A stretch of 64,000 nucleotides of DNA from the NCBI GenBank assembly GCA_039028155.1, contig JBCCIS010000005.1:1-64000 (forward strand), written 5' to 3'. Every line of letters starts with the position of its first letter. Positions within the stretch are counted from its first letter, which is position 1. The position numbers and the translations under genes were made by a program. Below are positions 758 to 16,194 of this stretch, piece after piece. The notes below the pieces were generated by a model, which saw only the letters and a program-made list of their open reading frames with translations, ran no database searches and was not told where the DNA came from. The DNA is from Pseudomonadota bacterium. Its GTDB lineage: Bacteria; Pseudomonadota; Alphaproteobacteria; SP197.

Positions 758-1717
758 TCACTTGAGAAAGAATTCGACGGGAACGAGCAGTTTGATGCGG
801 TCGCCTTCGACCTCAGGCGGCGGCGGTGGAAGCGGTTCGGCGCGACGGATGAGGGCGAGAACCTCGTCGTCCAGGCGCTGATGGCCGGAGCTATCGTGAA
901 TCCGGAAGGCGTGTACCTCTCCCGCTCGACCCATCTCGAGATAGAGCAGTACCGTACCTTCCTGGTTGCGGCTTTGCGCCTCGCGCGGATAGGTCTTGTG
1001 CTTCTCCAGCCAGGCCAGGAGATAGGCCATGTAGTCGGCGGCGCTGCCTTCGTAGCCGCCGCCCGAGACGTCGTCTGCGTGGCCGGCGTCGGGGCTGTCC
1101 TGCGATCCCGCTTGGCCGGCCGAGCCGGCAACCGATGGCGCGTCCTCAGAGATCGTTGGTTCGGCGTCGCTTTCGACCTCGGCCGGCACAGGCGCGCTGA
1201 CTTGCGGTGCCGGCGTTGCCTCAGCCAAGGATGCCACGGTGGTCGGCGCCTCGAGCGGGATCGGCGGAACCGGCACGGCCTCGGCGACCTCATCAGGTTT
1301 GACGGTCGCTGTCAGATCGGCCGCTTCCACGATCGCGTCGGTCGCGATGACCGCAGCTTCGTCAACGGGTTCCGCGACGTCCGCCGCGGCGTCGACCGCC
1401 ACGATGGCGTTGGGCTCGACGGGTTCGGTAATCTCGACTGTCTCATCGACAGGCAGCGTCTCCGCGGTCGTCTCCACGACCTCAACGACCTCGGCTTCCT
1501 CGACGACGGCCTCCTGCGCCTCGAGAGGCGGCGCGGGTGTGGCGACGCTTCCGGGCGCGCCGCCGGTCGGGCCGAGCGAGACATCGATGCCGCCGATGCC
1601 AGACGCCACGGCACCGGGTGGCTCGGGTTCCCAGAACATGGCGGCGGCGACTCCTGCATGAACCAGGACCGCCAACATGACGGCGATCAGGAGTTGACGC
1701 ACGGTGACATGCATCAA
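758..1717 (-). CDS. tonB: Energy transducer TonB
   Basis: A 319-residue protein with one N-terminal membrane anchor (residues about 7-28), a long middle part rich in Pro, Glu, Val and Ala (about 30-215), and a C-terminal TonB domain with YMAYLLAWLEKHKTYPREA and GTVLLYLEMGRAGEVHAF. This is the layout of TonB, which spans the periplasm and passes proton-motive energy from ExbB/ExbD to outer-membrane receptors. It is the last gene of a minus-strand operon exbB-exbD-exbD-tonB and its start overlaps the end of the second exbD by four bases. Likely clients are the siderophore receptor at 6.2-8.6 kb and the heme receptor at 11.2-13.3 kb. Confidence 0.93.
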   Translation of the reverse strand: MMHVTVRQLLIAVMLAVLVHAGVAAAMFWEPEPPGAVASGIGGIDVSLGPTGGAPGSVATPAPPLEAQEAVVEEAEVVEVVETTAETLPVDETVEITEPVEPNAIVAVDAAADVAEPVDEAAVIATDAIVEAADLTATVKPDEVAEAVPVPPIPLEAPTTVASLAEATPAPQVSAPVPAEVESDAEPTISEDAPSVAGSAGQAGSQDSPDAGHADDVSGGGYEGSAADYMAYLLAWLEKHKTYPREAQSRNQEGTVLLYLEMGRAGEVHAFRIHDSSGHQRLDDEVLALIRRAEPLPPPPPEVEGDRIKLLVPVEFFLK

Positions 1718-2124
1718 AGCGGTTCCGGCACGGTCAGCAGTTTCAGTTTCTCGACACCGGCGTCGCGCAAAAGCTCCATGACCGCGACGATCGATGTCGC
1801 CTCCGCCCGCCCGTCCGCCTTGAGCCGCACGATGAAGTCGGCACCGGCAAACTCAGTTCGCTCGCTGATCACCGCGACGAGGACGGCCTCGGTCACGATC
1901 TCGCCGTCGAGTGCCACCTGACCGCTGGCGTCCACCACGACCAATGCCTCGCGCCTGACGTCGGATCCGTTGCTCGCCGAGTAGACGGGTTCGATGTCGA
2001 ACGGATCCGTCACGGTCAGTTGTCCGGCGATCATGAAGAAGATCAGGAGCAGAAAAACGATGTTGATGAGCGGCAGAATGCGCTCATCGCCCATGGCTTT
2101 CGATTGACTGCGCTGAAACCGCAT
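1714..2124 (-). CDS. exbD: ExbD-family protein, second copy, pore Asp replaced by Asn
   Basis: A 136-residue ExbD/TolR protein with a short cytoplasmic N-terminus, one membrane helix (about 17-35, LPLINIVFLLLIFFMIAG) and a periplasmic domain. The start ATG at 2124 was chosen because the frame further upstream runs inside the preceding exbD and shows no ExbD sequence. In ExbD/TolR the helix carries an essential aspartate after Pro-Leu-Ile; here the codon at 2062-2064 is AAC, giving Asn21. The neighbouring copy keeps the Asp. This protein probably works only together with that copy in a mixed motor. Confidence 0.88.
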   Translation of the reverse strand: MRFQRSQSKAMGDERILPLINIVFLLLIFFMIAGQLTVTDPFDIEPVYSASNGSDVRREALVVVDASGQVALDGEIVTEAVLVAVISERTEFAGADFIVRLKADGRAEATSIVAVMELLRDAGVEKLKLLTVPEPL

Positions 2125-2128
2125 ATCC

Positions 2129-2584
2129 CTAACGTTCGCTGTCTCGGATGAACGACAGATCCCTCGCGCCGATCTCGGCGAGATGGTCAAGCAACGACAC
2201 CGCATCCTGTAGTGCGACGCCGGCGGCCGGTTTGATCAGGACGCGTTGCTGCGGATTGTCGGTGAGCCGTTTGCCGACTGCTTGCTTCAGGTCGTCCAAC
2301 GTCACGGTCTGGCCCGATAGACGCAGACCGTCGGTTCGAATCTCAACAAGCAGAGCGCCTTCCATCGACGTGTTCGCGCCCGCGCGCCCAGGCGCGTTGA
2401 GGTCGATTGCGCGCCACTCAAGCAGAGACGACGCGAGCATGAAGAAGACAAGCAGAATGAACACGACGTCGATCAGCGGCGTCAGACTGATCAGCGCGCG
2501 GCGCCTGCCGGTTTTCAGGGTGTGCCTAGTCGCCAGCTGCGAAGGCAGCCGACCCGATACGTTCGGGCCCACTTTGCTCTCCAT
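2129..2584 (-). CDS. exbD: ExbD-family biopolymer transport protein, first copy
   Basis: A 151-residue ExbD protein: cytoplasmic N-terminus of about 30 residues, membrane helix TPLIDVVFILLVFFMLAS (about 35-53) and a periplasmic domain ending in IGARDLSFIRDSER. Asp39 is the proton-carrying aspartate of the family. The ATG at 2584 lies 59 bases inside the end of exbB, a large overlap; no later ATG precedes the helix, but a GTG four codons on is possible. It differs strongly from the second ExbD, so the two are old paralogues rather than a recent copy. It works with ExbB and TonB in energising outer-membrane transport. Confidence 0.9.
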   Translation of the reverse strand: MESKVGPNVSGRLPSQLATRHTLKTGRRRALISLTPLIDVVFILLVFFMLASSLLEWRAIDLNAPGRAGANTSMEGALLVEIRTDGLRLSGQTVTLDDLKQAVGKRLTDNPQQRVLIKPAAGVALQDAVSLLDHLAEIGARDLSFIRDSER

Positions 2585-3347: not shown

Positions 3348-3761
3348 TTACTTAATGAAGGCGACGGAGCCGAGCGATGTCGGCGCGACGACGTCCAGGC
3401 AGTCTTGGCGCGGCCCGTTGTTGTCATGGCACGCGAGGACGTCGTTCAGCAGGACGCGGCCAACCTCGCCACACTGCTGATCGGCGAAGTCGAAGACCTT
3501 CAGGCTCGTCTTCCCAGCCTTCAGCGGCGCCGTCTCGACCGCCAGCCGGTTGGCGACGATGCCGTCGTTGTCGAGCAGCACGAGGTCCAGCTTCAAACTA
3601 TCGAACGCCGCACCGGCGCCGTTGTGAAGCATCAGATACGCCCGACAGGCATCACCGTTCGGTTCAAGCTTGTTAAGCTCGACCGTGACGATCGGATCGC
3701 CAGCATTGGCCGAAACACCGAACAACGCGAATGCAGCGCTTAAGACGAGCAATCGTAACAT
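3348..3761 (-). CDS. Secreted protein of unknown function heading the tonB-exbBD operon
   Basis: A 137-residue protein with a signal peptide (MLRLLVLSAAFALFGVSANA, cleavage near residue 20) and a periplasmic part with two Cys pairs (GDACRAYLML, DQQCGEVG, LACHDNNGPRQDCLDV). The ATG at 3761 is chosen because it starts the signal peptide; a longer open frame upstream has no such feature. It ends 24 bases before exbB on the same strand and is the first gene of the unit, just behind a Fur-box-like site. Small secreted proteins of this kind recur beside exbBD-tonB in alphaproteobacteria, but I know of no assigned function. A periplasmic accessory of TonB transport is a guess from position. Confidence 0.75.
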   Translation of the reverse strand: MLRLLVLSAAFALFGVSANAGDPIVTVELNKLEPNGDACRAYLMLHNGAGAAFDSLKLDLVLLDNDGIVANRLAVETAPLKAGKTSLKVFDFADQQCGEVGRVLLNDVLACHDNNGPRQDCLDVVAPTSLGSVAFIK

Positions 3762-3777
3762 CAAAACTGCCACTTGC

Positions 3778-3925: not shown

Positions 3926-4264
3926 TCATGGTCTTGGCATCGTCATCAGGGCGGCCGCAATGCCGCTTGGAATGACGGCGAGCGTTCCTGCTAGGGCCAA
4001 GCGCGGCGCGAGCGGCAGAAGAACGACAAAGGCCAAACCGCTCGCGGTCAGCACACAGAACCAAAGCACCAAGCCCGTCGACCAACCGGCCGCCGCGCTA
4101 CAGGCAACGAGAGAGGTGGTCAGAAGGGTCGCGCCGGCCAGACGCAGCATCGCGCGCCGACCCTGCCCGACCGGACGCTGCCAGAGCTGCCGGTGATGTC
4201 GATCCATCGCCAGGGCCAGGCAGGCGAAACCGGCATAGGCGCACGAAAGGGCAAGCAGGGTCAT
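3926..4264 (-). CDS. DUF3325 family small membrane protein
   Basis: A 112-residue protein with about three or four hydrophobic segments: MTLLALSCAYAGFACLALAM, a middle segment after the basic RHHRQLWQRP stretch, and two near the C-terminus. Length, start sequence and position after a PepSY-domain membrane protein fit DUF3325, a family found in siderophore uptake loci. Its ATG at 4264 overlaps the end of the PepSY gene by four bases (ATGA), so it is translationally coupled. The role is not known; it probably forms a membrane complex with the PepSY and DUF3649 proteins and may help reduce or release ferric iron. Confidence 0.75.
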   Translation of the reverse strand: MTLLALSCAYAGFACLALAMDRHHRQLWQRPVGQGRRAMLRLAGATLLTTSLVACSAAAGWSTGLVLWFCVLTASGLAFVVLLPLAPRLALAGTLAVIPSGIAAALMTMPRP

Positions 4265-5847
4265 TCCACCAACTCCACCTGTTCGGGTGAAGGTCGCGTG
4301 GCCGGCCGTGGCAGGTTGGCGGCAGCGGTTGGGCGCACCTTCCGGTTCAGCGTCCACGCGGTGCTGGCGAACGCGACTCCGAAACCAAGGACGGTCAGGT
4401 CAAAACCGGCACGCTGCCAGCTTCCGGTCGCGATGGCGTCCGCGAGATGGCGGTTGGTGGTGACGGCGTTGAGCGCCGGCAGCAAACCAAAGAGAGCGGC
4501 GTTCAACCACAACCCGTCAATCCAGGCGCGGTTCAGTGGGCGTAGCATCAAGACGACCGCGACAACCAGCCACGCCAGAAAGAAACACTCGACCTCACGA
4601 TCGGCTCGGCTGGCCATGTCGAGAGGCAGCAAACGGTTGGCCCAGAACAGGGCGGCGATGCCGGCGGGAAGGCCTAAAATGGCGGCCAGATTCAGTTTGT
4701 CGACGGTGCGGAGGCCAAAACCTGGCGCTCGCCCTTCCGCGATCGTGCGGCGGCGGCGCGCGACGGACCACAGAATCAACCCTGTCGCGACGACGCCGGT
4801 GCCGGCGAGGCCCGAAAGGAACAACAGTCCACGCAGGACGGGCTCGGCAAACCGGCCCAGATGCAGGCCATAAAAGAACAAGGCAAAACGGGTCGCCGTA
4901 CTCCGCGCCATCTGCGCGTCGACGAGTTCACCATCGGAACCGTTGAACACGACGCCCTCGGCACGATGGCTCAAGGTCTCGGTACCGCTGCGATACACGA
5001 TCACGCGTGAAGCGGCATCGTCAGGATGATCGATAACGATGCGGCCGGCCTGGCCGCCGTCCCACAGCCGGCTGGCGGCCGCCAGCATCGGCGCCAAGGC
5101 GGCAAGTGGTGCGGCTTGTCCGGACGCATCGGTGGCGTCTGTCGTCACAACGCCGCTATCCTGAAGAAAGGCGCTGCGGTCCCCCGAGTACGCGACGTCG
5201 ACACCCCAGGGCATGTAGAGGAAGAGCAGGGGCACGATGCCCGTGTACGTGATCAGGATATGATAGGGCAGGGCCATCACGCCCATGGCGTTGTGTGCGT
5301 CGAGCCAGGAGCGTTGACCCTTGCGCGGGCGGAATGTGAAGAAGTCCCGGAAGAACCGGCGATGGGTGATGATACCGCTGATGATCGCGACCAGCATGGT
5401 GACCGCGCAGAACCCGACGATCAGGCGGCCCCAAATCGACGGCACCAAAAGATCGAAGTGGAAGTAGTAGAGACTCTCGCCGCCGTACGTGCTGCGGACG
5501 TCGATGGGTTTGCCGGTCACGGGATCCAGCAGTTCGCGCCCGAAGGTCGGACCGCTGCCGGGTTCGCGGCGAAAAACGATCTCGGTCGTCGGGTTTCTCT
5601 CTGTCGGCAAGTCGATGACCCATTGCCACGCGCCCTGACCGATCTCCTGGAGCCTGTCGATCGCCCGATCCGCGGCTTCGGACGGCGCGATCCGGACCAT
5701 GCGCAACTCGGGGCGCATCCAAAGACTGATCTCCTGGCGGTAATAGCTCGCGGTGCCGGTCAGGAAGATCGCGAACAACAGCCAGCCGACCAGCAGACCG
5801 GACCAGGTGTGCAGCCACGCCATGGATTGGCGGAACGTCGCCTTCAC
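4261..5847 (-). CDS. PepSY-associated transmembrane protein (PiuB/FoxB-type, probable siderophore-iron reductase)
   Basis: A 528-residue inner-membrane protein. It opens with SMAWLHTWSGLLVGWLLFAIFLTGT, the first helix of the PepSY-associated TM family, and has further helices near the middle (RLIVGFCAVTMLVAIISGIITH) and C-terminus, with large periplasmic parts between. GTG at 5847 is chosen because a GGAGA stretch lies just upstream and the start shares GTGA with the stop of the preceding gene. FoxB and related proteins of this family reduce ferric siderophores at the inner membrane. His residues in HTW, ITHRRFF, HNAMG and YHILITYTG are candidate heme ligands. Placed between DUF3649 and DUF3325 genes behind a siderophore receptor. 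Confidence 0.85.
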   Translation of the reverse strand: MKATFRQSMAWLHTWSGLLVGWLLFAIFLTGTASYYRQEISLWMRPELRMVRIAPSEAADRAIDRLQEIGQGAWQWVIDLPTERNPTTEIVFRREPGSGPTFGRELLDPVTGKPIDVRSTYGGESLYYFHFDLLVPSIWGRLIVGFCAVTMLVAIISGIITHRRFFRDFFTFRPRKGQRSWLDAHNAMGVMALPYHILITYTGIVPLLFLYMPWGVDVAYSGDRSAFLQDSGVVTTDATDASGQAAPLAALAPMLAAASRLWDGGQAGRIVIDHPDDAASRVIVYRSGTETLSHRAEGVVFNGSDGELVDAQMARSTATRFALFFYGLHLGRFAEPVLRGLLFLSGLAGTGVVATGLILWSVARRRRTIAEGRAPGFGLRTVDKLNLAAILGLPAGIAALFWANRLLPLDMASRADREVECFFLAWLVVAVVLMLRPLNRAWIDGLWLNAALFGLLPALNAVTTNRHLADAIATGSWQRAGFDLTVLGFGVAFASTAWTLNRKVRPTAAANLPRPATRPSPEQVELVE

Positions 5848-6158
5848 AGCCGTTCTCCAAACCAAACGAGCGACAACAGGGCGGCCGCCACCAAACAAGC
5901 GGACCCAATCCCCAACCATGCGCGCCATGCGGCCCTAACGGCGAAGGCCCAGATCCAGACGGCAACCCAGATTGGCGCGCTGACAAGCATGCCCGTCTGA
6001 ACCGCCTCTGCACGTGACGCTGGCATGACGAGCGCCAACAGCACCGCGCAGAGCGACGCGAACGCATACCCGCCGACCGTGGCGGCCAGGGTTCGTGAGA
6101 CGATCGCGCCCTTGGTTGTGGCCTTCGAAGAACGGGCGCGGGCTTGCGCGCCCGTCAC
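5844..6158 (-). CDS. DUF3649 family small membrane protein
   Basis: A 104-residue protein with basic N-terminus and three hydrophobic segments; the stretch SRTLAATVGGYAFASLCAVLLA is characteristic of DUF3649 (iron uptake-associated) proteins. GTG at 6158 is chosen because it overlaps the receptor stop as GTGA and gives the usual distance of about 19 residues before the SRTLAA segment; a second GTG at 6101 is possible. It is coupled by another GTGA overlap to the PepSY gene. Function unknown; the fixed order receptor, DUF3649, PepSY, DUF3325 points to a membrane complex acting on iron brought in by the receptor. Confidence 0.75.
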   Translation of the reverse strand: MTGAQARARSSKATTKGAIVSRTLAATVGGYAFASLCAVLLALVMPASRAEAVQTGMLVSAPIWVAVWIWAFAVRAAWRAWLGIGSACLVAAALLSLVWFGERL

Positions 6159-8632
6159 CACTCGAATGTCAAACCGGCAAGGATTGAGCGCCCGATACCA
6201 TAAAAGCAACGGTCGGCACTTAGACAAGATGCGACATAGGTCTCGTCGGTGACATTGGAGGCGTTGAGCGAAACCTCCATGCCGGTCAGCTGGCTGTCGA
6301 CTTGCCCGAGGTCATAGCGCGCGGAAGCGTCGAACAATGTGACCGCCGGTACGTTAAACGTGTTGGCGGTATCGCCGACAGAGCTGCCGATATAGCGGAC
6401 ACCGGCGCCAAGCTCCAACCCGTCCAGGCTGTTGCCGTCAAACGCATAGCCGCCCCAGAACGAGGCCGTATGCTCGGGAATGCCGGTCAGCCGATTGCCG
6501 AGGTCGGTGCCGTTGCTCTCCGTAACTTTCTGGTCGAGGTAGGTGTAGGAAGCGATGAAGCTCCACCCGCTGTCCAAGGTCGCAACGGCTTCCAACTCGA
6601 CACCCTGCGACCGTACTTCACCGGCTTGAACTTCGAAGCCCGGGTTGTTCGGGTCGGGCGTCAAGACGTTTTGCTGAGTCAGCTCGAAAACCGACACAGT
6701 CGCAATCAGGTTCTCGCCCGGTGGCTCATACTTGATGCCGGCTTCATACTGCTGGCCGGTGGTCGGTACGAAGGGGTTGCCGGAGAAGTCCACACCGATC
6801 TCAGGCACGAAGGATTCGGAGTAGCTGACATAGGGTGTGAGACCGTTGTCGAAGGCGTAGCCCACGCCGCCCCGACCGGAGAACTTGTTGTCATCTTGCG
6901 AGGTGATGCCGCCGGTCAGGTTGTTGGTGGTCTTGCTCTCGGCCCAGTCCTGCCGCCCACCGAATGTGAAAATCCAGTTCTCGAACTTGATCTGGTCCTG
7001 GGCGTAGAGACCGATCTGCTCGGTACGAAAGTCGAGATTCTGAAAGACCGGCGGTTGAGGGATGGTCTGATAGTAGACGGGATCATAGAGGTCCAGCGTC
7101 GGCGCCGCGCTGAACCGGCGCAGCGTATCGCTATTGTTGCGCTGCAGGTCGATGCCAAAGAGAAACGTGTGGGAAAGCGCACCGGTGTCAAAGACCGCCT
7201 GTGCCTGCGTGTCCAGGGCGTAGGCGTCAGAGTGTTCGACGGCACCGAACGCGCTTCGGTTGGCGGTCCGCTCATCGGCCTGAAGCGAGCTGATGAAGAC
7301 CGACTCGAAGTCCAGGTCGTTATGGGTATAGCGGGCGTTTTGCCGGAACGACCAGGTGTCGTCGAACTGGTGCTCGAAAACGTAGCCGAGCGCATAGAAC
7401 TCGCGGATCCATTTATCGTAGTTGGGATCTCCGGCGAAGCGGTCGCGCGGGATCTTGCCGAACTGCGAATCAAAAACAGTGCCGACGGACGGTAGATACT
7501 TCACGAAGCCGCCGTCGATATCGTCATGCTGATAGGCGGTCAGAATGGTCAGCGTCGTATCGGGTGTTGCACGCCAGGTGAAACTGGGCGCGAACGCCTC
7601 ACGTTTGCGGCCCGTGAATTGGGTTTGTGCATTCTGGTCGGAGAGAATGCCGACGAGCCGGTAGGTTAGGTCCGCGTCATCCGTCAAGGGACCGCCGAGA
7701 TCGACACCCAGTTCAATCGTGTCGAAGGTGCCGCCGCGAAGCATGACCTCCCCCTGGGCTTCGTCAGGCGGTAGTTTCGAGATGCGGTTGACGATGCCGC
7801 CAGGCTGGTTCTGGCCATAGAGAACGGATGCCGGTCCGCGCAGCACCTCAAGCCGCTCATAAAAGAACGGATCGAAACTGCTCACTGCGAACTGCGTCCC
7901 CTGGACACGCAGACCGTCCCAGTATTCGTTATCGGAGGCGCCAGCAGTGCCGTCGCCGCCAAAGCCGCGAATGGCAATGTTGTCGCCGCCTAGCCCCGAT
8001 GAATCGCCACGCGTACCGGTTGTCACGCCGGCGGTGTAGGCCAACGCGTCGCCGACCGTTCGGGCGCCGAGCGCGTCGATTTGGTCTTCGGTGATGACGC
8101 TGATCGATTGCGGCACCTCGCTGATCGGAGTGTCCGTCTTCGAGCCAGTGGAGCTGCGATCGGCGACGAAGCCGTCGACGGGTCCGAAGGCGGTCTGGCC
8201 CTGTCCCTCGACCGTGATCGGATCAAGCATCAGAACGTCATCATCACTTTGACCGCGTTGCCGGATACTCACCGTCGTGCCATCGACGATGCTGTAGGTC
8301 AGGTCGGTTTGTGACAGCAACAGCCTGAGCGCCTGGTTGGATGTCATGGTGCCCCGGACATCTGGCGCGTTGGCGTTTCGGATCAGGGCGCCGTCTGCGG
8401 TCACCTGAAGGCCGGATTGCTGACCGAACAAGGCGAGCGCGCTGGTCAGTGGTTGCGCGGGGATATCAAACGTCTGCAGCGCGTCAAGCTCAGCCGATTG
8501 TGCTGTGGGCTCGGGTATCTCGGCGGACGCCGCCTGGGTTTCGGTCGCCAAGAATGTCGTCGCGATCGCAATGCCGACGATTGCGGTTCGCCGTGCGATT
8601 GCCCACGCAGCGTTTCCGGTTCTGATGCTCAC
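6155..8632 (-). CDS. TonB-dependent siderophore receptor with N-terminal signalling domain
   Basis: An 825-residue outer-membrane receptor. After a signal peptide (ending ATETQA) comes a secretin/TonB N-terminal domain (about 45-125: FDIPAQPLTSALALFGQQSG, LRLLLSQTDLTYSI), then the TonB box region, the plug (VPQSISVITEDQIDALG, RGPASVLYGQNQPGGIVN) and a 22-strand barrel ending in the aromatic ILAGLTFEW. The signalling domain marks a transducer of the FecA/FpvA class that controls an ECF sigma factor through FecR; both partners are encoded just upstream. GTG at 8632 is chosen for its GGGGGAAC ribosome site and because it starts the signal peptide. The siderophore cannot be named from sequence. 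Confidence 0.92.
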   Translation of the reverse strand: MSIRTGNAAWAIARRTAIVGIAIATTFLATETQAASAEIPEPTAQSAELDALQTFDIPAQPLTSALALFGQQSGLQVTADGALIRNANAPDVRGTMTSNQALRLLLSQTDLTYSIVDGTTVSIRQRGQSDDDVLMLDPITVEGQGQTAFGPVDGFVADRSSTGSKTDTPISEVPQSISVITEDQIDALGARTVGDALAYTAGVTTGTRGDSSGLGGDNIAIRGFGGDGTAGASDNEYWDGLRVQGTQFAVSSFDPFFYERLEVLRGPASVLYGQNQPGGIVNRISKLPPDEAQGEVMLRGGTFDTIELGVDLGGPLTDDADLTYRLVGILSDQNAQTQFTGRKREAFAPSFTWRATPDTTLTILTAYQHDDIDGGFVKYLPSVGTVFDSQFGKIPRDRFAGDPNYDKWIREFYALGYVFEHQFDDTWSFRQNARYTHNDLDFESVFISSLQADERTANRSAFGAVEHSDAYALDTQAQAVFDTGALSHTFLFGIDLQRNNSDTLRRFSAAPTLDLYDPVYYQTIPQPPVFQNLDFRTEQIGLYAQDQIKFENWIFTFGGRQDWAESKTTNNLTGGITSQDDNKFSGRGGVGYAFDNGLTPYVSYSESFVPEIGVDFSGNPFVPTTGQQYEAGIKYEPPGENLIATVSVFELTQQNVLTPDPNNPGFEVQAGEVRSQGVELEAVATLDSGWSFIASYTYLDQKVTESNGTDLGNRLTGIPEHTASFWGGYAFDGNSLDGLELGAGVRYIGSSVGDTANTFNVPAVTLFDASARYDLGQVDSQLTGMEVSLNASNVTDETYVASCLSADRCFYGIGRSILAGLTFEW

Positions 8633-8694
8633 AATGTTCCCCCGCCACGGTGTGTCTGGCGAGACACCCCCGGTGAGCCCGCACAGCATTTGTA

Positions 8695-8715
8695 TGCGAA
8701 TGCCTCTCATTCGCA
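8695..8715. promoter_or_regulatory. Perfect inverted repeat, Fur-box-like, upstream of the siderophore receptor
   Basis: TGCGAATG - CCTCT - CATTCGCA: two perfect 8-base arms with a 5-base spacer, 63-83 bases before the receptor GTG. The arms equal those of typical Fur sites (GCGAATGnnnnnCATTCGC). Confidence 0.6.
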
Positions 8716-8801
8716 CTTTCCACTAGACACAACGCTTGCGAGCTGGGCTTTTCTAAAAAAAGTTCCTAACGGCTATCGTTCTGATTTGGCGGGCTATTTC
8801 A

Positions 8802-9875
8802 TCACGGTGCTGACACGACGAGGATCCAGGGTGTGATCTGGTGGACGCTTGCGCCATGGGTGTGAGCAAGGCCGCGCAAGGCGTCGACCGGGTCGGCGAG
8901 GTTGTAGACGCCGGTAACGGGGAGTTCGGCGAACGCGCCGTCGGTGACGATGATCGTGCCGTCGAAGAACGGCCGGAGCCGATCGACAACCTCCCCCATG
9001 GGCTGATCCTGCGCGACCAGTTGGTTTTGACGCCACGCCGCTATTTGGACCGCCGGTATGTCGCTTCGGATGACATTGCCGTTCCACGTAACGCGAACAC
9101 GTTGGCCTGCCGCGAGCGTTTCGGATACCGGCGGCGTGACACGGTCGTTGTCGACGCGGACAACGCCGTATGCGACCGCGATCTCAGCTTCGTCGTTGTC
9201 GCTCCGCACATTGAACTGTGTGCCCAGCACGGTCGCTTGGACGTCGCGTGTGGTGACACGGAACGGCCTGTCCGCATCAGACACGACATCAAAGAAGGCC
9301 TCGCCGGCGAGCAAGCGAACATCGCGGCCCGTGTCGTCATAGGTGACGGTAATCGCGCTGTCGGGCGCCATGGTGACCGCACTGCCATCTGCCAATGCTA
9401 TCGTGGTCACTTCCGAGCTACCGGTGATGTGGTCGGCCTCTAGACGCAGGACGATCGACGGAACGGCAAGGATGGCGATGCACGCCGCAATCGCCAATGT
9501 CGCTACTCTGAGGCCTAGCTTCCGTCGCCTCGTCGGCTGATCTCTGCGCACCGCAACGTCCCGGCGTTGGCCAGGAGATCTCGCAGTGTTCGCGACCGCG
9601 GCGTCTGTTTGTGGTTGCTGCTGCAGCACGTCTGCAGCGCGGCTTTCGGCAACGAACGATGCCCACGCATCCGACGTCTGAGGTTGGGCCACGCCGATCG
9701 CGCGTACCGTCTTCTGTGTCGTCGCCCATGCCGCTGCGTTGACCGGACTATCGCCCAGCCAACGTTCAAAGCGGCTCAACAGCGAGGGGTCGTCCGGTTC
9801 CTCCTGTAGCAATATGAGCCAGTCCGTGGCCTCCTTCGAGGCTCGCTCCTCGGCTGACATCGTCTCAGCGGTCAT
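8802..9875 (-). CDS. FecR-type anti-sigma / sigma regulator
   Basis: A 357-residue protein with the DUF4880 N-terminal domain that binds sigma factor (about 8-50, ATDWLILLQEEPDDPSLLSRF and PVNAAAWATTQ), one membrane helix (about 110-130), the periplasmic FecR domain (about 140-240: ADGSAVTMAPDSAITV, RDVRLLAGEAFFDV, FRVTTRDVQATVLGTQFNVR) and a C-terminal secretin/STN-like part. FecR proteins take the signal from the receptor's N-terminal domain and release or activate the ECF sigma factor. It lies between the sigma gene (129 bases upstream) and the receptor gene (169 bases downstream), on the same strand. Confidence 0.92.
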   Translation of the reverse strand: MTAETMSAEERASKEATDWLILLQEEPDDPSLLSRFERWLGDSPVNAAAWATTQKTVRAIGVAQPQTSDAWASFVAESRAADVLQQQPQTDAAVANTARSPGQRRDVAVRRDQPTRRRKLGLRVATLAIAACIAILAVPSIVLRLEADHITGSSEVTTIALADGSAVTMAPDSAITVTYDDTGRDVRLLAGEAFFDVVSDADRPFRVTTRDVQATVLGTQFNVRSDNDEAEIAVAYGVVRVDNDRVTPPVSETLAAGQRVRVTWNGNVIRSDIPAVQIAAWRQNQLVAQDQPMGEVVDRLRPFFDGTIIVTDGAFAELPVTGVYNLADPVDALRGLAHTHGASVHQITPWILVVSAP

Positions 9876-10004: not shown

Positions 10005-10553
10005 TCATGACGCCTGACCAAGTCGCCGTTTACAGTGCTCGACCCCATCGGCAACAAGGATGTGGGCAAGCGAGACCGAAATGCCGAGGAACGCAGCGAT
10101 TTCGCGCAGTTTGCAGCCGCCGAAACGATGCATCTCAAGTGCTATCCGGGTGCGTTCCGGCAGTTCGGCGATGGCCTCCATGACGATGCGGTAGTCGTCC
10201 TTGTGCAGCGCGACCATCTCCGGTGTCGGTTCGCCAGCTGCGGTTCTGCCGGCGACGCTGTCGAAGTCATCGCCGGTCATGACACGGTTCTCGCGCGTCA
10301 TGGTGCGCCGACCATCGAGCGCAAGGTTGCGCACGATCCGGTAGAGGTACCCGACCGGCTCCTCCAGAAGTCGGCGGTTTGCCGCTGCGTCAAATCGTAA
10401 CCAGGCCTCTTGCACCAGATCCTCCGCGTGCGCACGGTTGCCAATGATGCCGTTCGCGTAGTCGACGAGAGCATTGCGATGCGTAACGAAGAGGTCGAGA
10501 GGCGTTGTCTTTTGGCGCAAGACCACGAGTTCCTTTTCGCCTGCCTTTGACAT
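10005..10553 (-). CDS. ECF RNA polymerase sigma factor, FecI-like
   Basis: A 182-residue sigma-70 family protein with region 2 (FVTHRNALVDYANGIIGNRAHAEDLVQEAWLRF, about residues 22-54, with the aspartate of DLVQE) and region 4 (LPERTRIALEMHRFGGCKLREIAAFLGISVSLAHILV, about 130-168). No region 3 and the length are typical of the iron-responsive ECF group. It is the first gene of fecI-fecR-receptor on the minus strand and is divergent from hemP; a Fur-like site in between could govern both. Expected to direct transcription of the siderophore receptor unit. Confidence 0.92.
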   Translation of the reverse strand: MSKAGEKELVVLRQKTTPLDLFVTHRNALVDYANGIIGNRAHAEDLVQEAWLRFDAAANRRLLEEPVGYLYRIVRNLALDGRRTMTRENRVMTGDDFDSVAGRTAAGEPTPEMVALHKDDYRIVMEAIAELPERTRIALEMHRFGGCKLREIAAFLGISVSLAHILVADGVEHCKRRLGQAS

Positions 10554-11176: not shown

Positions 11177-13330
11177 ATGACTTTTGGAAAGGTGGGCTGC
11201 GCCGTGGCAACGGTCGTTGTGACGGCGCTTTATGCATCGTTGGCCGTCGCTCAGACAGCCGAGGATGCAACGGTCGCACAGGAGGAGGGGACGGATGATG
11301 GCGGTGCATCGCTGCCCATTCTTCTCAACCCGATTTCGGTGACCGCGACGCGCAATCCGATCGAGGCGTTCGAGTATCCGGGCATGGTCTCGGTCATCGG
11401 CAGGGAGGAAATCGAGACGCTCCAGCCGTCAACGCCTGACGACATCCTGAAATGGGTGCCGGGCGTTCAGTTCCTTGGCGGGCCGAGGCGGACCGGCGAG
11501 GTGCCGGTTATCCGGGGTTTCTCCGGGCCCGACACCGTCGTTCTGATTGATGGCGCGCGCCAGAACTTTGGATCGGCCCATGATGGGCGTTTCTTCATCG
11601 ATCCCAGTCTGATCCAGCAGGTCGAAGTGCTGCGTGGTCCGGCCTCGGCGCTCTATGGCAGTGGCGGTACGGGCGGTGTGATCGAGTTCAGGACACTCGA
11701 CGCCGCCGATTTTTTGTCGGGCGGTGACACCTATGGCGGCACTGTTTCCGGCGGTTTTCAGACGGTCAACGACGAATGGGTCGGTACGCTGACCGCCTAT
11801 ACGGCGCCGACCGACCAGTTCGACATTCTGGGCTCTATCACCAAACGCGATTCCGGCGATATCAAACTCGGCGACGGCAACACGTTGGCGAACACCGACG
11901 ACGACATTATCGCCGGGCTGGCGACCGGCGGGTTCAACTTTGCCGACTATCACCGCATCGAGGGGTCCTACATCACTTTCCGGAACGATGCGCAGGAGCC
12001 GAACAACGGGCAGGGTGCAGGCGGCCTCGGCATCGTCGACAAAGACATACGGTCAAGCACCTATCAGGTCAGCTACGACTACAGCAATCCAATGGACAAC
12101 CTGCTTGACCTGGACGTCATCGCCTACTTCACCGAAACACAAGCTGACGAACTCAGGCTCGATAACCTCGGTATCGGGCCGGCCGGCCAGACAGTGAAAC
12201 GCGATGTCGACACCTACGGCTTTCGGATCGATAACCGCACAAGCTTTGATACGTCAGACGACGTCGCCAACATCTTTACCTATGGCGTCGAGTTCTACCA
12301 CGACAAGCAGTTCGGCGCGTCCGGATCGGGTACCCGGGCCGGTGTGCCGAACGCGGAAGATTATTTCTATGGTGTGTTTCTGCAGTCGGAGACCACGATC
12401 ACCGAGCCTTTCGGCACCATTCCCGGCGAGCTGCTTATCGTGCCGGGCATCCGCTATGACGACTACGAGGTCAACAGCTCGCTTGCGGCCGGTAACAGCG
12501 ACAGCGAGTGGTCGCCGCGTCTGGGCGTAAGCTACCTGCCCAATGACTGGCTGATGGTGTTCGGGAGCTATTCGGAGGCGTTTCGCGCGCCGACCTTTAA
12601 TGAACTCTATTTGACGGGGACGCATTTCAATATCGTGATCCCCGGCATCCCGACCATCACGAACAATTTCATCCCAAACCCGGATCTCAAACCGCAGCGT
12701 ACGCGCACCTGGGAGTTTGGCGGCGGTTTGACGTTCGAAGATGTTCTCACGGAGGACGACGGCATGTGGGTCAAGGGTTCTTACTATCGGACCTACGCCA
12801 AGGACTTGATCAACCTCTCGGTCACTCAGCCAGCCCCGTTCGTCGACTGTAATCCGTTCATTCCCGGTGCCTGCAACGGCACGACAGAAGCCGACAACAT
12901 CGGCAACGCCAAGCTCTGGGGCACGGAGGTGGAAGGTGTCTACGAAAACGATCGCTTCCTCGTGTCGCTGGGGTTCTCGACGATACGCGGCAAGGACGAG
13001 GACACCGGCGCCTATGTGGGAAGCCTGCAGCCCGACACGTTCACCGTCATCACGGGCCTGAAGCTGCCGGAAGTGAATTCGATCGTCGGCTGGCGCATGC
13101 TCGCTGCCGATGGCTTCGACAAGGTCAATACCCCGGGGCAAGAACGCGGAGGCTATGCGGTGCATGACTTCTATGCCGCTTGGCAGCCGCCTGAAGGCCT
13201 GCTCCAAGGGTTCCGTGTCGACGTCGGCGTTGATAATGCGTTCGACAAGTCCTACAGCAGGGTCTTCACAGGTTCGGTTGAGGCAGGGCGCAACTATAAG
13301 GCTCTCGTCAGTTACTCCATGATCTGGTGA
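11177..13330 (+). CDS. hmuR: TonB-dependent heme/hemoglobin receptor
   Basis: A 717-residue outer-membrane receptor with signal peptide (cleavage near residue 25, SLAVAQ), TonB box NPISVTATRN, plug (PGMVSVIGREEIETLQ, VPVIRGFSGPDTVVLIDGAR, LRGPASALYGSGGTGGVIEF) and barrel. The heme-receptor pair of motifs is present: FRAPTFNELY and NPDLKPQ, with a single His (residue 483, GTHFN) between them, the place of the conserved heme-ligating His of HmuR/HemR/ShuA. It has no N-terminal signalling domain, unlike the siderophore receptor. It is followed at once by hmuT, so it forms one unit with the hemin ABC transporter. Confidence 0.92.
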   Translation: MTFGKVGCAVATVVVTALYASLAVAQTAEDATVAQEEGTDDGGASLPILLNPISVTATRNPIEAFEYPGMVSVIGREEIETLQPSTPDDILKWVPGVQFLGGPRRTGEVPVIRGFSGPDTVVLIDGARQNFGSAHDGRFFIDPSLIQQVEVLRGPASALYGSGGTGGVIEFRTLDAADFLSGGDTYGGTVSGGFQTVNDEWVGTLTAYTAPTDQFDILGSITKRDSGDIKLGDGNTLANTDDDIIAGLATGGFNFADYHRIEGSYITFRNDAQEPNNGQGAGGLGIVDKDIRSSTYQVSYDYSNPMDNLLDLDVIAYFTETQADELRLDNLGIGPAGQTVKRDVDTYGFRIDNRTSFDTSDDVANIFTYGVEFYHDKQFGASGSGTRAGVPNAEDYFYGVFLQSETTITEPFGTIPGELLIVPGIRYDDYEVNSSLAAGNSDSEWSPRLGVSYLPNDWLMVFGSYSEAFRAPTFNELYLTGTHFNIVIPGIPTITNNFIPNPDLKPQRTRTWEFGGGLTFEDVLTEDDGMWVKGSYYRTYAKDLINLSVTQPAPFVDCNPFIPGACNGTTEADNIGNAKLWGTEVEGVYENDRFLVSLGFSTIRGKDEDTGAYVGSLQPDTFTVITGLKLPEVNSIVGWRMLAADGFDKVNTPGQERGGYAVHDFYAAWQPPEGLLQGFRVDVGVDNAFDKSYSRVFTGSVEAGRNYKALVSYSMIW

Positions 13331-13358
13331 GGCCGACTTCGTGGTGAAGGAGAAACGA

Positions 13359-14273
13359 GTGGAGAGACCGAGAACATGGTGCAATAGGGCCTTACCACCA
13401 TGGCTCATCGCCATAGCGATCGCCTTGCCAGTCTCGCTCATGTCTGGCGCCGGTTGGACAGACGACGGGGCAGACAGCACCGGATCTGATGTCGCCAGAA
13501 TCGTATCGATTGGCGGTTCGGTTACCGAGATCGTCTATGCGCTTGGCGCCGAGGACGGGCTTGTTGCGGTCGACAGTACCAGCCTTTATCCGCAATCGGC
13601 CCAGGACCTGCCGGATGTCGGTTACATGCGTCAGCTTGCCGCCGAGCCGATCTTGGCGCTTGGCCCGACGCTGCTGCTCGCCGTTGACGATGCGGGACCG
13701 CCGACCGTTCTCGATCAGCTGCGCGAAGCCGGCACGCCGCTTGTTGTTGTTCCCGATGAGCCGTCGCCGGAAGGCGTCGCGGAGAAAGTGCGGGTAGTTG
13801 CCAATGCCTTGGGCATGGAAGGCGAGGGCGCAACGATGGCGGAGCGACTGACGGCCGACTTCGCGGCGCTGCGCGACTGGGTCGCGACCACGAAGACAAA
13901 GCCCAAGGTCCTCTTCCTGTTGTCGGTCGGCAATGGCGCGCCCCTTGCGGCCGGTCGCGAAACGTCGGCGGCCGGGATCATCGAGCTTGCCGGTGGCGCA
14001 AACGCCATCGATGGTTTCGAGGGTTATGAACCCTTGTCTCCCGAAGCCACCGTGACTGCCGCGCCGGACGTCGTGTTGGTAACCGGACGTACCTTTGATC
14101 TGCTGGGCGGTCAGGAAGCGATCCTGTCGCGGCCCGAGATTGCCGCCACGCCGGCCGGTCAAAACGGCGATATCGTGGTGATGGACGGTCTGCTGCTGTT
14201 GGGATTCGGTCCGCGAACGCCCGAAGCCGCACGCGAGCTTGCCTTGGCATTGCACCCCGACCTGCAAGAGTGA
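13359..14273 (+). CDS. hmuT: Hemin ABC transporter, periplasmic binding protein HmuT
   Basis: A 304-residue cluster A (helix-backbone) binding protein. After the signal peptide come RIVSIGGSVTEIVYALGAED, VGYMRQLAAEPILALGPTLLLA and, at the C-terminus, LLLLGFGPRTPEAARELALAL, which are HmuT/BhuT features. It carries heme from the receptor to HmuUV. GTG at 13359 is chosen because AAGGAG lies six bases before it; a GTG 18 bases earlier has no such site. The stop overlaps the next gene by four bases (GTGA). Confidence 0.92.
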   Translation: MERPRTWCNRALPPWLIAIAIALPVSLMSGAGWTDDGADSTGSDVARIVSIGGSVTEIVYALGAEDGLVAVDSTSLYPQSAQDLPDVGYMRQLAAEPILALGPTLLLAVDDAGPPTVLDQLREAGTPLVVVPDEPSPEGVAEKVRVVANALGMEGEGATMAERLTADFAALRDWVATTKTKPKVLFLLSVGNGAPLAAGRETSAAGIIELAGGANAIDGFEGYEPLSPEATVTAAPDVVLVTGRTFDLLGGQEAILSRPEIAATPAGQNGDIVVMDGLLLLGFGPRTPEAARELALALHPDLQE

Positions 14274-15385
14274 CGGCGGGCCAAACCGATACGGCTGGGA
14301 TGAACATTGCACACGACCCCGTCGCTGCAAGCACGAGAAGGCGCAGGCGCGTTGGCGTCTTTCTTGCCGTGTTGGGCGTGGCGCTGTTGCTCACCATCGT
14401 TGTAGCGGCCGGCTATGGGGCGGTGGCAATCCCGCCGGAACGGGTGGTCGCGATCCTGGCTGGGTGGTTGGGCTTCGCGTCGGCGAGCGAAACCGGCGAC
14501 ACCGATAGCATTGTGTTGCTTGCGATCCGCTTGCCGCGCGTCTGCCTTGGGTTGTTGGCCGGCGCGGCGCTCGCGGTCGCCGGTGCGGCGCTTCAGGGAT
14601 TGTTCCGCAATCCATTGGCCGACCCCGGCCTGATCGGGGTATCGAGCGGCGCGGCGGTAGCGGCCGCGGCGGCCATCGTTCTCGGCGGATCGGCGGTTGC
14701 GTTCCTTCCAGCCGGCAGCTTGACCTATCTCATACCCGTCGCCGCGTTCGCCGGCGGCCTGATCATTACGTTCGTGGTCTACCGTATCGCGTCGCGTGAC
14801 GGGCGAACTGAGGTTGCAACGCTTCTGCTGGCCGGCATCGCGCTCAATGCGATCTCCGGGGCCGGGATCGGTCTTCTGATATTCTTAAGCGACGATCAGC
14901 AGTTGCGAGACTTGAACTTTTGGCTGCTCGGAAGTCTGGGTGGCGTAACCTGGGAACGCCTGCTGCCGGCGGCGCCGCTTATGCTGGTGCCGACAATTCT
15001 GCTGGCGATGTTATGGCGTCACCTCAACGCGTTCTTGCTCGGCGAAACCGAGGCGCTGCATCTTGGTTTTGACGTCGAGCGGACGAAGCGTTGGATCGTC
15101 GTGCTGGCGGCGCTTGCCGCTGGCTCATCGGTCGCGTTGACCGGGATTATCGGCTTCGTCGGCTTGGTCGTGCCGCATCTGATCCGCCTGGTGATTGGCC
15201 CCGATCATCGCAGTCTGCTGCCGGCATCCGTGTTGCTTGGCGCTATCCTGCTTCTGTTGGCCGACCTTTTGGCGCGCACGATCGTTCTGCCGGCGGAACT
15301 GCCAATCGGCATTCTGACAAGCCTGATAGGCGGTCCCTTCTTCTTGTGGCTTCTGGTGCGCCGGCGCGGCATGGGCATGTGGTGA
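14270..15385 (+). CDS. hmuU: Hemin ABC transporter permease HmuU
   Basis: A 371-residue FecCD-family permease with eight or more hydrophobic segments. Family features are RLPRVCLGLLAGAALAVAGA followed by LQGLFRNPLADPGLIGVSSG, and near the C-terminus GFVGLVVPHLIRLVIGPDHR. The start GTG at 14270 overlaps the hmuT stop; an ATG at 14300 is the alternative and would shorten the cytoplasmic N-terminus by ten residues. It forms the membrane channel for heme with HmuV. Confidence 0.93.
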   Translation: MTAGQTDTAGMNIAHDPVAASTRRRRRVGVFLAVLGVALLLTIVVAAGYGAVAIPPERVVAILAGWLGFASASETGDTDSIVLLAIRLPRVCLGLLAGAALAVAGAALQGLFRNPLADPGLIGVSSGAAVAAAAAIVLGGSAVAFLPAGSLTYLIPVAAFAGGLIITFVVYRIASRDGRTEVATLLLAGIALNAISGAGIGLLIFLSDDQQLRDLNFWLLGSLGGVTWERLLPAAPLMLVPTILLAMLWRHLNAFLLGETEALHLGFDVERTKRWIVVLAALAAGSSVALTGIIGFVGLVVPHLIRLVIGPDHRSLLPASVLLGAILLLLADLLARTIVLPAELPIGILTSLIGGPFFLWLLVRRRGMGMW

Positions 15386-16194
15386 TGTTGCGGGCATCGG
15401 ATATCAAGGTTTCGATCGGAGATGCGTCGATCCTGCGCGATGTTTCGCTAGACGTGCGCCCGGGCGAGATTGTCGCGGTCATCGGACCGAACGGCGCCGG
15501 CAAGTCGACATTGCTGCACGTGCTGTCGGGCGCGCGATCGCCCAATGCCGGTTTGGCGTCGTTGGATGGTCTTCCCGTGCAGCGGTGGCGCCCACATGAT
15601 CTCGCCCTGCGCCGCGCGGTCTTGCCGCAGACGCCACTCTTGACCTTCCCGTTCCGCGTCTTCGACGTTGTCATGCTGGGCCGCAGTTGCCATGCCGGCC
15701 GTTCCAGACGAGAGGATGACATTGCGATTGCTCAGTCGGCCCTGAAGGAGGTCGACATGGTGCACTTGGCTGAGCGGATCTATCCGACTCTATCCGGGGG
15801 CGAACGCCAGCGCGTGCAACTGGCTCGCGTCCTCGCACAGGTTTGGCGTCAGAGCGGGGTTGATGGTGACGCCGGCGATACCCGTTACATCCTGCTGGAC
15901 GAGCCGACGAACAACCTGGATATCGGGCATCAACAGACAATCATGGAGACCGCACGGCGATTTGCCGATGACGGATTCGGCGTGCTCGCCATCCTCCATG
16001 ATCCCAATCTCGCGGCGATCCATGCCGACAGAATCTGTGTGCTGAGCGAGGGCGCGCTGGTCGCCGACGGCCCGCCTTCGGCGGTCATGACTCAAGATCT
16101 GCTGCAATCCATCTTCAAGTTGCCGGTAACCGTTCTACAACATCCAGAGAACGGTCGGCCGATCTTCCTTCCGCTATCGTCAACACATCATTAG
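15385..16194 (+). CDS. hmuV: Hemin ABC transporter ATP-binding protein HmuV
   Basis: A 269-residue ABC ATPase with Walker A GPNGAGKST (34-42), a Q-loop in VLPQTPLLTFPF, signature LSGGERQRVQLARVLAQ (about 135-152), Walker B YILLDEPTNNLD (about 168-179) and a switch His in ILHDPNL. The IGHQ stretch after Walker B is typical of heme importers (HmuV/BhuV). ATG at 15385 shares one base with the hmuU stop (TGATG); the open frame runs further upstream inside hmuU but shows no homology there. Confidence 0.93.
   Translation: MLRASDIKVSIGDASILRDVSLDVRPGEIVAVIGPNGAGKSTLLHVLSGARSPNAGLASLDGLPVQRWRPHDLALRRAVLPQTPLLTFPFRVFDVVMLGRSCHAGRSRREDDIAIAQSALKEVDMVHLAERIYPTLSGGERQRVQLARVLAQVWRQSGVDGDAGDTRYILLDEPTNNLDIGHQQTIMETARRFADDGFGVLAILHDPNLAAIHADRICVLSEGALVADGPPSAVMTQDLLQSIFKLPVTVLQHPENGRPIFLPLSSTHH

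Follow-up and report, generated by a model that had tools for sequence, protein, structure and literature searches.

A single exbB gene is followed by two exbD genes whose products differ at the position of the essential pore residue, the first ExbD having aspartate and the second asparagine, and this order is kept in 109 distinct gene pairs from Alphaproteobacteria and Gammaproteobacteria. We hypothesize that exbB-exbD(Asp)-exbD(Asn)-tonB encodes a Ton motor of the composition ExbB5-ExbD(Asp)1-ExbD(Asn)1 (5:1:1) with one proton carrier, a reading to which we give a probability of roughly 0.6. In models of MotAB, TolQR, and ExbBD, the two aspartates are taken to be equivalent and to act in turn. 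One gene supplies both subunits of the dimer in these systems, which makes it hard to test whether one aspartate suffices.

Two ExbD genes in one Ton operon

The window, i.e., the whole stretch of 64,000 nucleotides analyzed, contains the operon on its minus strand. From about 10.6 kb down to 0.76 kb, the order is sigma factor, FecR, siderophore-type receptor with an STN domain, DUF3649, PepSY-TM, DUF3325, a small protein without a known family, exbB, exbD (Asp39), exbD (Asn21), and tonB (Table 1). The first exbD overlaps exbB, 4 bases lie between the two exbD genes, and the stop of the Asn-type exbD overlaps the start of tonB. The pair is linked to the Ton system by the adjoining tonB and by the TonB-dependent receptor encoded in the same operon, and the ExbB retains the residues matching E. 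coli Thr148, Glu176, Thr181, Pro190, Asn196, and Arg200. The small protein encoded upstream of exbB had no match in Pfam or NCBIfam. Since a similar protein is encoded upstream of exbB at another locus (L044, 2642-3217), the small protein may be an accessory component conserved with this Ton operon.

The first-pass annotation had connected the operon with heme. This holds for the neighborhood, where genes for heme uptake run divergently on the plus strand (11177-16194) and encode a heme-type receptor (TIGR01785) together with the ABC transporter components (substrate-binding protein, permease, and ATPase), but not for the operon's own receptor, which is of the siderophore type and comes with FecI/FecR.

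Table 1. Features of the Ton operon in the window, with the evidence for each assignment
Feature	Position	Strand	Evidence
tonB, 319 aa	758..1717	-	PF03544, 56.5 bits; TIGR01352
Second ExbD (Asn type), 136 aa	1714..2124	-	PF02472; AlphaFold; Foldseek; 109 orthologous pairs
Asn codon AAC (Asn21), at the pore aspartate site	2062-2064	-	Sequence
First ExbD (Asp type), 151 aa	2129..2584	-	PF02472; AlphaFold; Asp in all first copies
Asp codon GAC (Asp39) of first ExbD	2468-2470	-	Sequence
exbB, 265 aa	2526..3323	-	PF01618, 102.6 bits; residue check
Small secreted-looking protein, upstream of exbB	3348..3764	-	No Pfam or NCBIfam match; similar protein at L044
DUF3325 protein	3926..4276	-	PF11804
PepSY-TM protein	4261..5928	-	PF03929
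DUF3649 protein	5844..6158	-	PF12365, 23.6 bits (cut-off, 21.2)
TonB-dependent siderophore-type receptor with STN signalling domain	6155..8716	-	PF00593, PF07715, PF07660; TIGR01783 above cut-off
FecR-type anti-sigma regulator	8802..9875	-	PF04773
Probable ECF (FecI-type) sigma factor	10005..10553	-	Judged from translation alone

The sequence confirms the position, strand, and pore residues of the two ExbD genes as first annotated. The transmembrane helix reads ISLTPLI-D39-VVFILLVFFML in the first copy and RILPLI-N21-IVFLLLIFFMI in the second. Both proteins belong to PF02472, with scores of 68.4 bits (Asp copy) and 61.6 bits (Asn copy) at a gathering cut-off of 25.4 bits, and both are far under the curated cut-offs of all three NCBIfam equivalogs, ExbD_1, ExbD_2, and TolR. 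They are 32% identical across 73 aligned residues and hence, as the first-pass annotation had argued, too different to result from a recent duplication. AlphaFold models both copies with a single transmembrane helix and a periplasmic alpha/beta domain, and Foldseek matched them to periplasmic structures of ExbD and TolR. The Asn copy is predicted to retain the ExbD fold: its model (mean pLDDT, 77) places the helix at residues 16 to 35 and matches the E. coli ExbD-TonB structures 8p9r and 8vgc with TM-scores of 0.84 to 0.85 by target length. The Asn copy is an ExbD homologue but not a self-sufficient motor subunit.

Conservation of the Asp/Asn pair

Scanning bacterial genomes with the Asn copy as query gave 22 loci. 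Further loci came from searches of relatives, of the class and phylum, and of the gammaproteobacterial class, and in every ExbD reading frame we scored the residue at the aligned position. The first-pass annotation depended on Asn being conserved among orthologues of the second copy, and this is strongly upheld: in all 109 pairs the first copy has the transmembrane aspartate essential in the ExbD/TolR family, and the second has Asn. The pairs come from about 50 families, with 29 family codes in the class of the window genome (to which its own genus is added) and 21 elsewhere in the phylum, and also from named genera such as Phaeobacter, Leisingera, Methylophaga, Marinobacterium, Kordiimonas, and Halochromatium. 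The Asp/Asn ExbD pair is thus common to many marine and other proteobacteria and is not peculiar to the window genome. By a rough reading that combines the search list with the scored residues, about 45 of 289 sampled alphaproteobacterial genomes have it. The distribution is patchy, since among the genomes sampled from the window's own family, the pair occurs only in the window's genus. Small alphaproteobacterial genomes retain the pair too, both at loci L009, L027, L076, and L132 (genomes of about 0.8 to 1.6 Mb) and in genomes G038, G169, G023, and G254 (0.8 to 1.4 Mb).

The same paralog class includes four exceptions, two Asp-then-Asp pairs (L097 and L099) and two Asp-then-Ser pairs (L215 and L216); these aside, the second copy is nearly always Asn. 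In the Ser-type copies, from the gammaproteobacterial genomes G879 and G767, the motif is TPLV-S-VIFLL, which is nonacidic at the pore position and retains Thr at -4. The Asp in the second copy of two lineages shows that Asn is not strictly needed everywhere. Tandem exbD genes do not imply Asn, because 11 tandem pairs from other branches, ten of the DLTPMLD type and L013, have Asp in both copies; a further 92 single ExbD proteins in the scored set have Asp.

Several loci have apparently deviating arrangements. An Asn-type gene without an adjoining Asp-type gene occurs only at L044 in genome G668, where it directly follows exbB; this single case probably reflects gene loss or faulty assembly. 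G668 also carries an Asp/Asn pair at another locus, with one TGA flagged inside the match of its first copy. L081 lies at a contig edge and still contains the C terminus of the partner, and the apparent Asn-then-Asp order at L140 is an effect of open reading frame calling, the true order being Asp then Asn. At L071 the Asp-type exbD stays open for about 350 nt past the Asn codon of the following gene, which lies in a different frame, owing to a frameshift or a long overlap, and L050 has an unreadable base.

The gene order is similarly conserved. exbB lies upstream of the pair at 85 of 86 loci, and tonB lies downstream at 76 of the 85 loci with room for it. The distance from the stop of the first copy to the Asn codon has a median of 61 nt, which puts the start of the second gene only a few bases from the end of the first. 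An ExbB/MotA-type partner with pore threonines, a trait of the 5:2 rotary motors, was found in every case (Thr148, Thr181, and Pro190 in 87 of 87).

Within the 109 pairs the second copy differs from the first at several sites besides the pore residue (position 0). Position -4 is Thr in 98 first copies and Leu, Ile, Val, or Met in 108 second copies; an acidic residue (Asp or Glu) at -8 or -7 occurs in 4 first and 95 second copies; and position +13 is Ser or Thr in 105 first copies and Gly in 93 second copies. Since positions -4 and 0 share a helix face, this face has lost both of its polar groups in the Asn copy. The remainder of the helix is conserved, but the initial description of an otherwise preserved helix misses the loss of Thr at -4. 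By this pattern, the Asn copy is a distinct subunit with a signature of its own. We rejected charge complementarity of the cytoplasmic N termini as evidence for pairing: the mean charge differs (+2.8 in first and +0.1 in second copies), but partner charges do not covary (Spearman 0.17, positive; P = 0.08), and the difference therefore gives no support.

In a tree of 222 sequences calculated without the Asp/Asn residue, a single branch separates all 96 second copies from the rest, apart from one misplaced long row (the first copy of L155), and the first copies and other ExbD/TolR proteins likewise cluster; this is a quick tree from few columns with many weak forks, and its finer order is unsure. 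Because the second copies form one clade even when the scored residue is left out, the Asn copy is an ancient paralog and not the product of a recent mutation. Over about 76 substitutions per site of summed branch length in this clade, the tree requires only three changes of the residue, to Asp or Ser. The Asn codons among orthologues are AAC (62) and AAT (47), both of which are a single base change (AAY to GAY) away from Asp. By this measure, Asn is under strong selection against Asp. A return to Asp seems possible but rare, as in an earlier tree L097 was nested among Asn copies and L099 was paired with the Asn copy of L091; L097 and L099 may be such returns to Asp/Asp.

A proposed motor with one proton carrier

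Does the pair form the working Ton motor? The window genome is 97.4% complete, and family searches found TolR and the Asp/Asn pair as its only ExbD-type proteins, next to 4 receptor plugs, 2 TonB proteins, and three matches to the MotA/ExbB family (TolQ, the operon ExbB, and one weaker match). Four near-complete genomes, G043, G119, G173, and G121, likewise have only TolR and the Asp/Asn pair, with 1, 6, 2, and 8 receptors, respectively, and they too encode TonB. As the only non-TolR ExbD proteins in receptor-bearing genomes, the Asp/Asn set would have to be the working Ton motor unless TolQR powers all receptors; this gene content supports, indirectly, a functioning motor in the window genome and these four genomes. 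Several gammaproteobacterial genomes contain canonical ExbD sets alongside the pair, which need not be the working motor there. The complete-looking genome G210 (L252, L261, L271, and L272) has the pair and TonB, and a PF07715 search found no receptor plug.

We infer the mixed dimer from the single exbB, the near-invariant gene order, the tight coupling, and the distinct, co-inherited paralogs; its 1:1 ratio, activity, and step size are inferred as well. In the proposed motor, the axle inside the ExbB pentamer would be an ExbD heterodimer in which proton transport falls to the Asp-type helix alone. The helix of the Asn copy would be permanently neutral, imitating an always-protonated subunit, and this copy would act as a structural and periplasmic partner, keeping an ExbD periplasmic domain of the TonB-binding kind. 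In current models the two aspartates alternate, each proton driving 36 degrees (PMC12215075, PMC12905483), and they occupy different environments (PMC12215075). With a mixed axle, each 72 degrees of rotation would consist of a half-cycle driven by a proton and a passive one. Since only every second 36-degree step could be proton driven, the motor would, on the simplest prediction, use one proton per 72 degrees and five protons per turn instead of ten. In favor of the neutral role, the Asp-to-Asn change D22N in MotB is treated as protonation mimetic (PMC9389320). E. coli ExbD D25N is inactive (PMC11658791), and a review considers the ExbD aspartate absolutely required (PMC12905483), which counts against a one-Asp motor; however, with one exbD gene both subunits become Asn in such a mutant. 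We found no report on dominance of MotB D32N in the open-access literature searched. The full claim, that natural Ton motors with an obligate Asp/Asn heterodimer, a single proton carrier, and one proton per 72 degrees are widespread, is more tentative, and we would give it somewhat less than an even chance.

Alternatively, the two copies could form separate homodimers, with Asp/Asp as an ordinary motor with ExbB and the Asn dimer in a nonmotor role such as TonB holder, peptidoglycan contact, or assembly factor. Both copies retain the periplasmic domain, and the DLTPMLD-type tandems with Asp in both copies illustrate that tandem genes need not mean a one-Asp mixed dimer. Yet each operon has one exbB, the Asn copy has a pore-like transmembrane helix with strongly conserved packing residues that a protein outside the pore would not need, and order, coupling, and co-occurrence are near exceptionless; we consider separate homodimers unlikely. 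Slightly less probable still is that the Asn copy acts as a brake or tuner, exchanging with the Asp copy to give a mix of Asp/Asp, Asp/Asn, and dead Asn/Asn dimers that limits proton leak or torque. Strong selection for Asn against Asp is what one would expect if neutrality is the function, but adjoining genes with near-fixed spacing offer no evident way to vary the ratio, and about 31% identity together with copy-specific helix signatures suits obligate pairing better than free exchange.

It is improbable that another residue of the Asn copy carries protons, so that both subunits carry them by different routes. The acidic cluster at -8/-7 of the Asn copies would be the candidate; this site, however, is at the cytoplasmic helix end, away from the Thr ring, many canonical ExbD/TolR proteins also have a nearby acid and yet need Asp25, and Glu14 of E. 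coli ExbD contacts ExbB (PMC12215075). Loss of the essential aspartate, taken alone, would resemble the decay of a paralog kept by chance, but the near-invariant Asn and helix residues across the sequence divergence of the clade, the intact frames, and the maintenance in small genomes make this very improbable, and the conservation data already contradict it.

Relation to known systems and significance

The 5:1:1 motor would share with the ExbB5-ExbD2 complexes of E. coli and Serratia (6tyi, 7ajq, and 9ddo) the ExbB pore threonines, an ExbD with one transmembrane helix and a periplasmic domain, and TonB. It differs from the E. coli complex with its identical subunits in having two ExbD genes, one with Asn for Asp and without Thr at -4. 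The Myxococcus gliding motor AglRQS also combines one MotA/TolQ-like protein with two MotB/TolR-like proteins; AglQ and AglS, however, are both described with the conserved aspartate, and it is reported as unknown whether they combine into mixed dimers (PMC9389320). Heterologous pairs of tolR-like or vWA transducer genes have the same layout, beside one tolQ-like gene, but in the vWA pairs each monomer is reported to have one conserved aspartate, and the accessible part of the report mentions no Asn copy (PMC12204202).

Two exbD genes in one operon, as here, appear in the accessible parts of reports on Ruegeria TM1040, whose heme cluster contains exbB-exbD1-exbD1a-tonB (PMC5225302), and Stenotrophomonas, with tonB1-exbB1-exbD1a-exbD1b (PMC11002078). 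Compared by description, these parts call the second gene only a duplicate or a peculiar observation and leave the residue undiscussed. Relatives of Ruegeria do have Asp/Asn pairs, in Phaeobacter, Leisingera, and Tritonibacter plasmids (L192 to L194). An Asn-type ExbD copy was not described in the open-access literature searched, some of it seen in part and with subscription papers and preprints outside its scope, and we provisionally regard the Asp/Asn pair as new to the literature.

The natural pair bears on whether this class of rotary motors needs both aspartates. Presumably, evolution has split two roles into two genes and placed the neutrality of one subunit under selection in Alpha- and Gammaproteobacteria. 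Each ExbD subunit can be separately mutated, tagged, and counted in tractable bacteria such as Phaeobacter, making proton stoichiometry, step size, and the differing aspartate environments seen by cryo-EM directly testable; L097 and L099, with Asp in the second copy, are good natural comparisons. If our hypothesis is true, members of the 5:2 motor class can run on one titratable site, with asymmetry built into the axle.
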